A DNA stretch of 42,330 bases, from assembly GCA_028291365.1 (NCBI GenBank), contig JAQGIE010000196.1:1-42330 (forward strand), given 5' to 3'. The notes under the pieces were generated by a model, which saw nothing but the letters and a program-made list of their open reading frames with translations, made no database searches and was not told the DNA's origin. Shown here piece after piece: positions 4,495 to 36,761 of this stretch (its first letter is position 1; each line of letters starts with the position of its first letter). The stretch is from Rhodospirillales bacterium (GTDB lineage: Bacteria; Pseudomonadota; Alphaproteobacteria; BOG-932; Roseiterribacteraceae). A program made the translations under genes and the position numbers.

Positions 4495-5151
4495 ATGACG
4501 CACCGCACCAGTCGCCCACCAAGGGCGCGCAGCAGCCATCCCCGTGGCGCAATTCCTGCCTCGGCTCCAGTTCCAGCTTCGGCCCGGGGACCGGGCCGGC
4601 CGCGCGACGCCGGTTGCCGCGCCAAGGTGCTGGGCGCAGCGCAGCGACTGCTGCTGGAAGAGACATTGTGCCAGTTCTCGGTCGAGCGCGTGGCGCGCGA
4701 AGCGGGAGTCAGCAAGGCCACGATCTATCGCTGGTGGCCCAATAAATCGGCGATCGCGATCGAGGCGTTTCGCGAACGGTTGCAGGCCGAGACCAAGACC
4801 CCGCCCGCCATCACCGCGACCGAGGCGCTACGCCGGCAGCTCGAAGGCCTCGCCCGCATCCTGCGCGGCGAGCTGGGCCAGGTGGTGCGCCAACTGGTCA
4901 GCGCCAGCCAGCAGGATCCCAAACTGGCCAAGCTGTTTCATGACGAGGTGGTGATTCCGCGTCGGAAGGTCCTGAAGGAAATGCTCGCGCGCGGCGTGCG
5001 CAGCGGCGAGTTTCGTACCGACCTCTCGCTCGATTCGATGATCGATATGACGTTCGGGACGCTCTATATGCGCCTGCTGTTTCAGCACCTGCCGATCGGC
5101 GGCGACTTGATCGACGACGCGATCCGGCTGCTGCAAGCGCGCCGCGCTTGA
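4495..5151 (+). CDS. TetR/AcrR family transcriptional regulator
   Basis: A 218-aa repressor, probably of the divergent RND pump. A Pro/Ser/Arg-rich N-terminal tail of about 35 residues, longer than usual, precedes the TetR helix-turn-helix (about residues 40-90), with recognition region VAREAGVSKATIYRWWPNKS. The C-terminal part fits the TetR_C ligand-binding and dimerisation domain. The ATG at 4495 lies 53 bp from the permease start, and an internal start near residue 30 cannot be ruled out. The 3' end matches a short segment at 5884-5952, so this gene appears to have been part of a local tandem duplication. Confidence 0.92.
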   Translation: MTHRTSRPPRARSSHPRGAIPASAPVPASARGPGRPRDAGCRAKVLGAAQRLLLEETLCQFSVERVAREAGVSKATIYRWWPNKSAIAIEAFRERLQAETKTPPAITATEALRRQLEGLARILRGELGQVVRQLVSASQQDPKLAKLFHDEVVIPRRKVLKEMLARGVRSGEFRTDLSLDSMIDMTFGTLYMRLLFQHLPIGGDLIDDAIRLLQARRA

Positions 5152-33377: not shown

Positions 33378-33974
33378 TCAGCCCATCTCCGCCAGCAAGC
33401 GATCGATCTCGTCCTGGCCCATCGCCTTGCCCGGCAATTGCGGACCGTTGAGCAGCGCCGCGTCGTTGTCCGGCGCCATTGCGATCTGCCCGTCCGCAGC
33501 CGCGGCTTCGTCACCGAAGGCGCGCAGCAGCCGTTCGACCTTGCCCTCGATCACTTTCAAGGTGCGCACGACCTTGGTGATGCGCTGACCGGTAATGTCC
33601 TGGAAGCTGCAGGCTTCGTAGATGCTTCCGACGATCTCGGTCACGCGGGTCTCGACGTCGCCGCCGACTTCGCTGCCGATGTTGGCCAGCTTCTCCGCCG
33701 CGTCCATGATCGTGTTGGTCGCCTCTTCGGTCGCGCCGACGACCGCATCGAGTTCGTCGGTGGCGCGCGGAATGTCGGTGCTGCGAATCTCGTCGGGACG
33801 CACCGCGGCGATGTCGTCGCGGGCCTGCCGGATGAAGAGCGCCAGCGCGCCGAGTTCGCGATAAAGACCGCCGACTCCACGGGTTTCTTCGCCGTGCATG
33901 TGCGTCAGCACGTCCTGCACGATGTTGGCGATCTCGTCCCGCGTGAGCGGCCGTTGCGCGTCGGTCTCGCCCAC
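33378..33974 (-). CDS. cheZ: Chemotaxis phosphatase CheZ
   Basis: Dephosphorylates CheY-P and so ends the motor signal. The long helical middle ends in the catalytic motif ACSFQDITGQRITKVV, with the Asp and Gln equivalent to E. coli Asp143 and Gln147. The C-terminus QDEIDRLLAEMG resembles the CheY-binding tail of CheZ. GTG at 33974 is the best start (GAGG, 6-nt spacer, 198 aa); a TTG at 33989 would overlap the stop of the cheY remnant. It sits between the truncated cheY and the TPR gene in the fliL-fliM transcript. Confidence 0.88.
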   Translation of the reverse strand: MGETDAQRPLTRDEIANIVQDVLTHMHGEETRGVGGLYRELGALALFIRQARDDIAAVRPDEIRSTDIPRATDELDAVVGATEEATNTIMDAAEKLANIGSEVGGDVETRVTEIVGSIYEACSFQDITGQRITKVVRTLKVIEGKVERLLRAFGDEAAAADGQIAMAPDNDAALLNGPQLPGKAMGQDEIDRLLAEMG

Positions 33975-33985
33975 GTCGGACCTCG

Positions 33986-34144
33986 TCAAGATTGACCGAT
34001 GACGCTGACGATCTTCTGTCTCAGCGTTTCGGCGTTGCAGGGTTTGACGATGTCGTCGTTGACGCCGGCCTGCTTCGAAATGATGCGAAGCATGGTTTCG
34101 TCGTCGTCCGCGATCAGGACGCGCATGCTCATATCAACGGCCAT
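33986..34144 (-). pseudogene. cheY: In-frame internally deleted CheY response regulator
   Basis: A 52-codon frame that begins like a full CheY (MSMRVLIADDDETMLRII, with the acidic-pocket aspartates) and then jumps to the normal CheY end (KQAGVNDDIVKPCNAETLRQ, with the conserved Lys-Pro). About 75 residues are absent, including the phospho-acceptor Asp, the Ser/Thr switch and most of the beta-alpha core, so it cannot fold or be phosphorylated as a receiver. The frame is kept and cheZ follows immediately. It could be a decayed gene, a deleted allele, or an assembly fault. A full cheY is presumably elsewhere. Confidence 0.75.
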
Positions 34145-34192
34145 CGAACCAGTTTTCCTTCGTCCTGACGACCGGACTTGCGTCCGGCACCG

Positions 34193-35119
34193 CTACTTCT
34201 TGTTGTTTGCGGCGGCCGGCTTGGCCGCCGGCGCTGCCGGCGGCTGAGCGGTCGCCGAAGCGGGCTGCGCCTGCACCGGCGGCGCCGCCATCGGCTGCTG
34301 CGGCAACGGTGCGGCGAACGATGCAGGCTGCAACGCCGAGGGCGGCGGCGTCGGCGGCAGCTTGCGCCGCTCGGCCAGGCGCGCCGTCACTTCGCGCGCA
34401 CGCTCGGGCTTCATCTGCGCGAAGATCGGCGCGATCTTCTGGTCCTTCATCTTCTCGACCACATCGAGCAGCACCGGCATGTCCAGCCCGTCGAAGATGG
34501 TCGCGGCCTCGCGCGGCTTCATCGCCTCGTAGATCTTCACGAGGTTGTTCAGCTCGGCCTCTTCCTTCGACTTGCGCATGCTGAGCAGCTTTTCGATGTC
34601 AGCCTTCAGCGCGGCCAGCTCGGCAACCTTCTGGTTCATCCGATCTTCGCCGACTTTCAGCAGGGCCTCGCGCTGCTCGACCGTCTGGGCGCGCTGGTCG
34701 AGCTCGTTGCGGCGCGCCGCCAAGGTCTGCAGCAGCTCGACTTCGGCGGACGACAGATTGGTTTCGGGCGCCGGGCGACGCGGATCGGTCGCTTGCTTGG
34801 GCGCCGCAGGCGCCGTCGCGGCCGCGTTCTGCACCGGCTTGTCCTTGGAAGCAGCGGCACCGCCCGGAGCGGGCGCCGGCAACGCAGCGGGCGGCTCAGC
34901 CGATTGGCCCGGCTTGGCAGCGGCGGCTTCGGTTTTCGGTATCGCCGAGGCAGGCGGCGCCTTGGTCTGCGCCTGCGCCGTCTGGACCGCCGGCACGGCA
35001 TCGCCGCCCAGCAGCAACGAAACCGCGTCGAACACGCGCACGCCGAACACCACCATCACCACGACCAGCGTCGCGGGGAGCAGGCGGAAATTGTTGAAGA
35101 AGCGATGTTGCGCAGCCAT
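34193..35119 (-). CDS. MotE-like flagellar protein (MgtE N-domain)
   Basis: A 308-aa protein with one N-terminal membrane helix (LLPATLVVVMVVFGVRVFD), a Pro/Ala-rich linker, a coiled coil (about 125-195) and an MgtE-N-type helical domain (VKIYEAMKPREAATIFDGLD, EKMKDQKIAPIFAQMKPERA). It ends in a second Pro/Ala-rich tail. This matches MotE of rhizobia, a periplasmic partner that stabilises the MotC chaperone-motor system. It overlaps the DUF6468 gene by one base. motA, motB and motC are not in the window. Confidence 0.82.
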   Translation of the reverse strand: MAAQHRFFNNFRLLPATLVVVMVVFGVRVFDAVSLLLGGDAVPAVQTAQAQTKAPPASAIPKTEAAAAKPGQSAEPPAALPAPAPGGAAASKDKPVQNAAATAPAAPKQATDPRRPAPETNLSSAEVELLQTLAARRNELDQRAQTVEQREALLKVGEDRMNQKVAELAALKADIEKLLSMRKSKEEAELNNLVKIYEAMKPREAATIFDGLDMPVLLDVVEKMKDQKIAPIFAQMKPERAREVTARLAERRKLPPTPPPSALQPASFAAPLPQQPMAAPPVQAQPASATAQPPAAPAAKPAAANNKK

Positions 35120-35703
35120 CAGTTTCCCCGCCGCAGCAGCTCGATGGCTTCGTACAGCTCGCGTTCAGCAGCCGAGCGCGCTTTGAGTTCGCGCGGCGCT
35201 TCTTCTTCGAGCGTCGGTTCGATCCGGATCGGCTCAACCGAACGGCCGCCGCGCGGCGGTATGGTCGACGCGGCACGCGGCGCCGGACGCGGCGCCGGCG
35301 GCTGTTGCGGCGCCGCCTGCGGCATGTGGTGCGGCTGCGGTGGCTCGGCGATGATCTGCGTCGGCTGCATCATGCCGCGCGATGCGTCGGTCGCACGCTC
35401 GAGGCGCGACGCCAGATTGTTCGCCGACTCGTTGATCATCTGCAGCTCATCGACCAGCGCGCGCGCCGTGCCGATCTGCTTTTGCAAAGTGCCGTCATAT
35501 TCGGCGGCCGAAGCCTTGAGCGCGTTGATCGAGAGGTCGGCCTTGGCCACCGCTTCGGCCAGCGAACCGACCAGCTGCGAGAATTCGGCCTTGCCGTCGC
35601 GCACGATGGCGAGCGCGCGATTGGCGCGCACCATCTGAATAAGCAGCGGTATGACCAGGCCGGCGAGGCACAGGTCGAGCAGGACGAGGAGCGTGGTGGA
35701 CAT
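35119..35703 (-). CDS. DUF6468 flagellar-cluster membrane protein
   Basis: A 194-aa protein with a single N-terminal membrane helix (LLVLLDLCLAGLVIPLLIQM), a helical domain with GKAEFSQLVGSLAEAVAKAD and SINALKASAAEYDGTLQKQI, then a Pro-rich and acidic tail. It matches the DUF6468 family, found between fliM and motE-like genes in alphaproteobacteria. Its role in the flagellar motor is unknown. It begins 11 bp after fliM. Confidence 0.8.
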   Translation of the reverse strand: MSTTLLVLLDLCLAGLVIPLLIQMVRANRALAIVRDGKAEFSQLVGSLAEAVAKADLSINALKASAAEYDGTLQKQIGTARALVDELQMINESANNLASRLERATDASRGMMQPTQIIAEPPQPHHMPQAAPQQPPAPRPAPRAASTIPPRGGRSVEPIRIEPTLEEEAPRELKARSAAERELYEAIELLRRGN

Positions 35704-35714
35704 GTTGCTCGCTC

Positions 35715-36761
35715 CTAATCTTGTTTCGGCGCGTCCATTTCGACGCGCACGGCGAGATTTTGCGACTTACGACCCATGCGCCCGAAATAGAGCGGCCGGT
35801 CGCCGCAGCGCATCTGGATCAGGCTGTCGGGCTGGGTGTTGAACATGAGCCGCGTTCCGATCTTCCAGTTCAGCACCTCGTTCAGTGTCGAGGCCGATTC
35901 ACCGAGGATCGCCATGAGCTCGACGTCGGTGTGATACAGCTCGCTGGACAAATGGGTTTCCCAGATCGAGTCACGGCCGAACTTTTCGCCCATGAACATC
36001 TGGAGCAGCAGCTCGCGAACCGGTTCGAGCGTCGCGTACGGGATCAGCAGCTCGAGACGTCCGCCGCGGTCTTCCATGTCGATGCGAATCTTGACCAGCA
36101 CCGCGGCATTGCCGGCGCGCGTGATCGCAGCGAAACGCGGATTGGTTTCGAGACGGTCGAAGCGAAACGTCACCGGGCTCAGCGGATCGAAGGCGCTCGA
36201 CAGGTCCGACAGGACCACGTGCACCATGCGCTCGACCAGGTTGCGCTCGATGGTCGTGTACGGACGGCCTTCGATACGCATCGCGGCGGTGCCGCGGCGG
36301 CCGCCCAGCAACACGTCGACGATCGAATAGATCAGCGCCGAATCGACCGTGAGCAGGCCATAATTGTCCCACTCCTCGGCCTTGAAGACCGAGAGCATGG
36401 CCGGCAGCGGGATCGAGTTCAGATAGTCGCCGAAACGGACCGATGAAATCTGGTCGAGCGAGGCTTCGACGTTGTCCGAAGTCAGGTTGCGCAGCGACGT
36501 CGACATCATGCGGACCAGACGGTCGAACACGATGTCGAGCATCGGCAGACGCTCGTAGCTGACGAGCGCCGAATTGATCAGCGCCATGACGCCCGAATTT
36601 TCGGAGTCCGACGCGGCACCGCGATCGAAGCCCAGCAGGCTGTCGATCTCGTCCTGATTCAGAATGCGGGCCTGGCTGCCGCCCCCGCCGTCGTCACCCG
36701 ACATCGCGGCCCATTCGGCTGCGATCCGGTCTTCATCTTCCATGCTGTCGGACGGGCTCAT
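35715..36761 (-). CDS. fliM: Flagellar motor switch protein FliM
   Basis: A C-ring switch protein that binds CheY-P and sets rotation. The 348-aa protein has the N-terminal CheY-binding peptide (ARILNQDEIDSLLGFDRG), preceded by a Gly/Asp-rich stretch of about 28 residues, then the middle CheC-like domain (LVRMMSTSLRNLTSDNVEAS, DVLLGGRRGTAAMRIEGRPY) and a C-terminal SpoA domain (LNWKIGTRLMFNTQPDSLIQ). The C-ring partners FliG and FliN are not in the window. It lies 17 bp after fliL. Confidence 0.96.
   Translation of the reverse strand: MSPSDSMEDEDRIAAEWAAMSGDDGGGGSQARILNQDEIDSLLGFDRGAASDSENSGVMALINSALVSYERLPMLDIVFDRLVRMMSTSLRNLTSDNVEASLDQISSVRFGDYLNSIPLPAMLSVFKAEEWDNYGLLTVDSALIYSIVDVLLGGRRGTAAMRIEGRPYTTIERNLVERMVHVVLSDLSSAFDPLSPVTFRFDRLETNPRFAAITRAGNAAVLVKIRIDMEDRGGRLELLIPYATLEPVRELLLQMFMGEKFGRDSIWETHLSSELYHTDVELMAILGESASTLNEVLNWKIGTRLMFNTQPDSLIQMRCGDRPLYFGRMGRKSQNLAVRVEMDAPKQD

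Follow-up and report, generated by a model that had tools for sequence, protein, structure and literature searches.

cheY–cheZ loci related to the window

In the flagellar loci closest to the one described here, a motE gene, an intact cheY and a cheZ follow one another in that order. Among 79 cheZ loci from public genomes, cheY adjoins cheZ in 77, the exceptions being Roseiterribacter gracilis TMPK1 (L045) and Acetobacteraceae bacterium KSS8 (L110); one further cheY in the set is cut by a contig end. In genome G044 (L016), cheZ follows motE after about 100 nt, and in KSS8 after a shorter gap, with no cheY between the two genes in either case (L016 1328–1429; L110 about 4860–4885). Both genomes, which represent lineages unrelated to Roseiterribacter, encode only a single CheY that matches the flagellar type strongly (E ≤ 1e-25), located elsewhere and adjoining a second cheZ. 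Literature searches for truncated CheYs accompanying CheZ, or for cheY pseudogenes adjacent to cheZ, returned nothing relevant.

The window, by which we mean the whole analyzed stretch of 42,330 nucleotides, shares its gene order and its cheZ family with the intact motE–cheY–cheZ loci, and the ends of its cheY remnant match their type of cheY. It differs from them in that the gene lacks 76 internal codons, such that the product cannot be a receiver domain, and in that cheZ is left without a CheY partner at its own locus. With G044 and KSS8 the window has in common that cheZ is kept after motE, that cheY is gone, and that a complete cheY–cheZ pair is present elsewhere; in those unrelated lineages, however, cheY is wholly gone with no recognizable stub. 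In the same-family genomes of genus g2 (G002–G004) no match to CheZ was found, and FliM was found neither in G002 nor in the incomplete G004. G003 carries a divergent cheY and a fliM in a flagellar cluster of a different type and therefore provides no ancestral state for the stub locus. Its cheY (contig C263; L145, L146) matches the query at 64% and lies beside a CheA-like Hpt protein, with no detectable CheZ.

The cheY remnant and its surroundings

The locus comprises, in order and on the minus strand from fliM to cheZ, fliM, a DUF6468 gene, a MotE-like gene, the cheY stub, cheZ and, as judged by eye, a gene for a large TPR-type protein; the corresponding locus of TMPK1 (L045) has identical genes in identical order. 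FliM (35715–36761) has the N-terminal motif RILNQDEIDSLLGFD, the CheY-binding site in this family. The DUF6468 gene (35119–35703), assigned by Pfam, belongs to the flagellar cluster, and the MotE-like gene immediately upstream of the stub (34193–35119) encodes an MgtE_N domain.

The stub itself (33986–34144, minus strand) is an open reading frame of 52 codons with an ATG start, encoding the 52-residue product MAVDMSMRVLIADDDETMLRIISKQAGVNDDIVKPCNAETLRQKIVSVIGQS, in which CheY residues 1–22 are followed directly, and in frame, by the last 30. The first-pass annotation had described such a fusion of the first ~22 and last ~30 codons, free of frameshift or stop, and both the reading frame and the alignment of homologues agree with it. 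Relative to intact homologues, 76 codons are missing, corresponding to 228 nt and hence a multiple of three, and the distance between the two breakpoints is exactly 228 nt in 74 of 88 relatives. Stub residues 1–22 and about 21–51 match distinct segments of full-length cheY at the expected spacing in dozens of relatives, and in many of them both halves match the same full-length flagellar-type cheY genes in the correct order. A PDB sequence search with the stub returned CheY as best match (E 1.4e-5), in the form of N- and C-terminal pieces. The Pfam Response_reg profile (PF00072) scored 17 bits (E 0.007), below its cut-off of 30.2 bits, as expected since the stub is a fragment. The resemblance of the peptide to CheY, on which the annotation depended, is thus recovered by the structure database and at a sub-threshold level by Pfam.

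With 52 residues and this score, the product is not a full receiver domain (~120 aa, above the Pfam cut-off). The annotation had also stated that the phospho-acceptor Asp and the fold core are lost, and both indeed fall within the 76 missing codons: Asp57 and the switch residue Thr/Ser87 belong to the deleted reference residues 23–98. The acidic Asp pair (DD, remnant positions 13–14) and the conserved Lys109 (K, remnant position 34) are kept, which is moot without the rest of the receiver domain. Homologous ends, a syntenic position and the loss of the essential core identify the stub as a CheY-derived pseudogene. Searching the assembly revealed no other copy or fragment of the flagellar-locus cheY elsewhere.

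An AAGGA ribosome-binding-like site precedes the stub (34156–34160, minus strand), within a leader that is identical to that of TMPK1 at 23 of 24 positions. On the downstream side, cheZ1 (33378–33989, minus strand) is intact and would encode 203 residues if started at a TTG overlapping the stub stop (TTGA); the GTG at 33972–33974, 11 nt from the stub stop, is the more likely start. Between that stop and the GTG we noted by eye a GAGG ribosome-binding-like site (33981–33984, minus strand) with a 6-nt spacer, which is the same in TMPK1. In the gap between the MotE-like gene and the stub, a hairpin CCGGAC-GCAA-GTCCGG is located at 34172–34187 (minus strand), and the corresponding gap in TMPK1 contains a different hairpin; the predicted RNA folding of this gap is inconsistent between the two, with z-scores of −2.5 in the window and −1.1 in TMPK1.

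Comparison with the sister species and signs of decay

R. gracilis TMPK1 is an isolate (PMC11164329, PMC8280870) and is motile (PMC11164329). Its sequence was determined independently, from about 1.6 Gb of reads for a 4.2 Mb genome, and it is the only other Roseiterribacter genome compared, so that timing and constraint are weakly measured from two genomes in all. At the matching position it has a shorter in-frame ORF of 18 codons, MAADMSKRVLSANNYGQS, composed of about 15 N-terminal cheY codons and the last three codons, and ending at the same stop as the stub in the window. The scars differ between the two genomes, from which it follows that the deletions were nested or arose independently. 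Some residues lost from either remnant survive in the other: positions 13–14 are DD in the window and NN in TMPK1, whereas position 15 is Asp in the window and Tyr in TMPK1. Both retain the frame, the start, the ribosome-binding region and the original stop.

We evaluated the remnant at 30 columns with at least 90% conservation across 93 intact flagellar CheYs. Six have changed (V12A, Y15D, A23S, N30D, Y31D and F36C, in remnant numbering), each to a residue found in none of the 93 homologues. Intact CheYs differ at zero to four of these columns, with 69 of the 93 unchanged at all 30; CheY2, a functional paralogue, itself shows four such differences, and the column count alone is therefore no proof of decay. 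Over the 15 codons common to the stub and TMPK1, a small sample, there are six nonsynonymous and two synonymous changes (dN 0.19, dS 0.28), while cheY2 has a dN/dS of 0.05 between the same two genomes. The nonsynonymous excess is significant relative to cheY2 (Fisher p 0.001) and to cheZ1 (p 0.03). As judged by these codon changes, the 5′ part of the stub shows relaxed selection, a result that, given the sample, applies to direction only.

Relaxed selection, differing scars in sister genomes, a complete paralogue and intact neighbors are features that the window shares with operon pseudogenes decaying in frame after a paralogue has taken over. Unlike such pseudogenes, the scars of the window and TMPK1 both preserve frame, start, ribosome-binding region and stop.

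CheZ1, the other CheY proteins and the origin of the stub

The product of cheZ1 matches the Pfam CheZ family profile (PF04344) with an E value of 4.4e-17, and with a dN/dS of 0.118 the gene is under purifying selection. Its FQDITGQ sequence corresponds in the alignment to FQDLTGQ of E. coli CheZ (1kmi chain Z), which contains the catalytic residues Asp143 and Gln147, and the C-terminal CheY-binding helix, QDEIDRLLAEMG, is kept and aligns with the same chain. The Pfam match, the catalytic motif and the C-terminal helix bear out the earlier description of cheZ as complete.

The genome contains 91 receiver-domain matches. The search of the rest of the genome for a full cheY, which the annotation had proposed, identified one on contig C188 and one in the cheA operon. 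The former is the nearest full flagellar-type cheY (66% identical to an Azospirillum-like query); its product, CheY2, has a DWNM phospho-site and an NYIVKPF sequence, and its gene is followed by a second cheZ. The cheY2–cheZ2 pair is complete both in the window genome (C188 4933–5890; L124) and in TMPK1 (C1 2535491–2536456), and both genomes also have a cheA operon that includes a cheY. On C188 the pair is isolated, between a peptidase-like gene and a gene for a large protein of no known kind, outside the flagellar and che clusters. CheZ and CheY trees did not place cheY2–cheZ2 with support as either an old duplicate or an acquired pair.

Based on these observations, we propose, with a probability of roughly 80%, that the stub is what is left of a decaying flagellar-locus cheY in Roseiterribacter, and that the job of this gene has passed to a paralogue that CheZ1 now serves. 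An in-frame internal deletion of 228 nt took out the phosphorylation site together with the fold core, and still more was lost in the sister species. The CheY output would have passed to the CheY of the cheY2–cheZ2 pair or to that of the cheA operon, and such a takeover would have made the loss at the flagellar locus tolerable. CheZ1 likely remains an active phosphatase for one of these two proteins and would thereby contribute to the CheY-P level at the motor. Since cheZ1 is under purifying selection, retains FQDxTGQ and the C-terminal helix, and other CheYs are present, CheZ1 most likely serves one of them, as far as can be judged from sequence. Of the three explanations offered by the annotation, loss of cheY with CheZ serving another CheY is accordingly the best supported, whereas neither a competitor peptide nor an assembly error fared well.

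An assembly collapse would mean that an intact cheY is present here in the real genome, and the window does come from a 271-contig draft. However, the independent isolate TMPK1 also lacks cheY at this position, with a different scar. In addition, the breakpoints in intact relatives show no in-register repeat longer than 2 nt and no common word longer than 9 nt, which is too short for a collapse, the missing middle of cheY is on no other contig, and the ends of the remnant are themselves eroded; we regard this explanation as practically excluded. Hardly more credible is that the 52-residue peptide works as a micro-protein, competing for CheZ or FliM through what remains of the α4-β5-α5 face. 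The C-terminal β5-α5 sequence and the lysine of the KP motif are retained, but the peptide has no fold core, and two of the six changes unseen in intact CheYs (Y31D and F36C) replace the invariant Tyr and Phe of that face. The TMPK1 remnant lacks the entire C-terminal, CheZ- and FliM-facing part, which makes a decoy role unlikely.

Although the stub is unlikely to function as a protein, the in-frame remnants, the original stop and the conserved leader hint that it is not wholly free of constraint. This would be accounted for, on a reading additional to those of the annotation, if the stub were kept as a lead-in, with ribosomes starting at the conserved cheY site, stopping 11 nt before cheZ and aiding its translation; in-frame deletions in two sister species would then have cut a response-regulator gene to a leader ORF with the sole job of feeding ribosomes into cheZ. 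That both scars leave start, frame and stop in place fits this idea, and the leader together with the first codons is identical at 51 of 55 positions between the window and TMPK1, above the 61–74% identity at fourfold sites (binomial p about 4e-4 to 1e-7). The cheZ start region is also predicted to be mostly paired in the window (mean unpaired 0.23, compared to 0.47 in TMPK1), such that cheZ might profit from arriving ribosomes. However, equal conservation is seen in 14% of 55-nt segments across the locus, and the leader identity is for that reason only suggestive of coupling; two in-frame deletions would arise by chance in 1 of 9 cases, cheZ is preceded by its own GAGG site, and in G044 and KSS8 cheZ manages with no stub ahead of it. 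We therefore consider coupling doubtful, if clearly less so than a decoy; it can operate alongside decay of the gene with takeover by a paralogue, and, if true, a dead gene would persist as a translational control element.

For the most part, then, the locus represents ordinary gene loss with paralogue takeover in a soil bacterium. Within the set examined, the flagellar-locus cheY has been lost at least three times, in as many alphaproteobacterial lineages, where a second cheY–cheZ pair is present, and the locus is a clean example of chemotaxis losing an output gene but retaining the phosphatase dedicated to it. In R. gracilis TMPK1, a cultured motile isolate, it becomes testable which of the CheYs is the partner of a given CheZ. 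For annotation, the stub serves as a warning that a CheZ beside such an ORF is not evidence for a CheY at the locus. Finally, four public MAGs in the survey, titled Marinimicrobia, Asaia, Nitrosovibrio and Planctomycetota (L058, L060, L071 and L117), carry typical alphaproteobacterial cheY–cheZ loci, and the names or bins of these records look doubtful.
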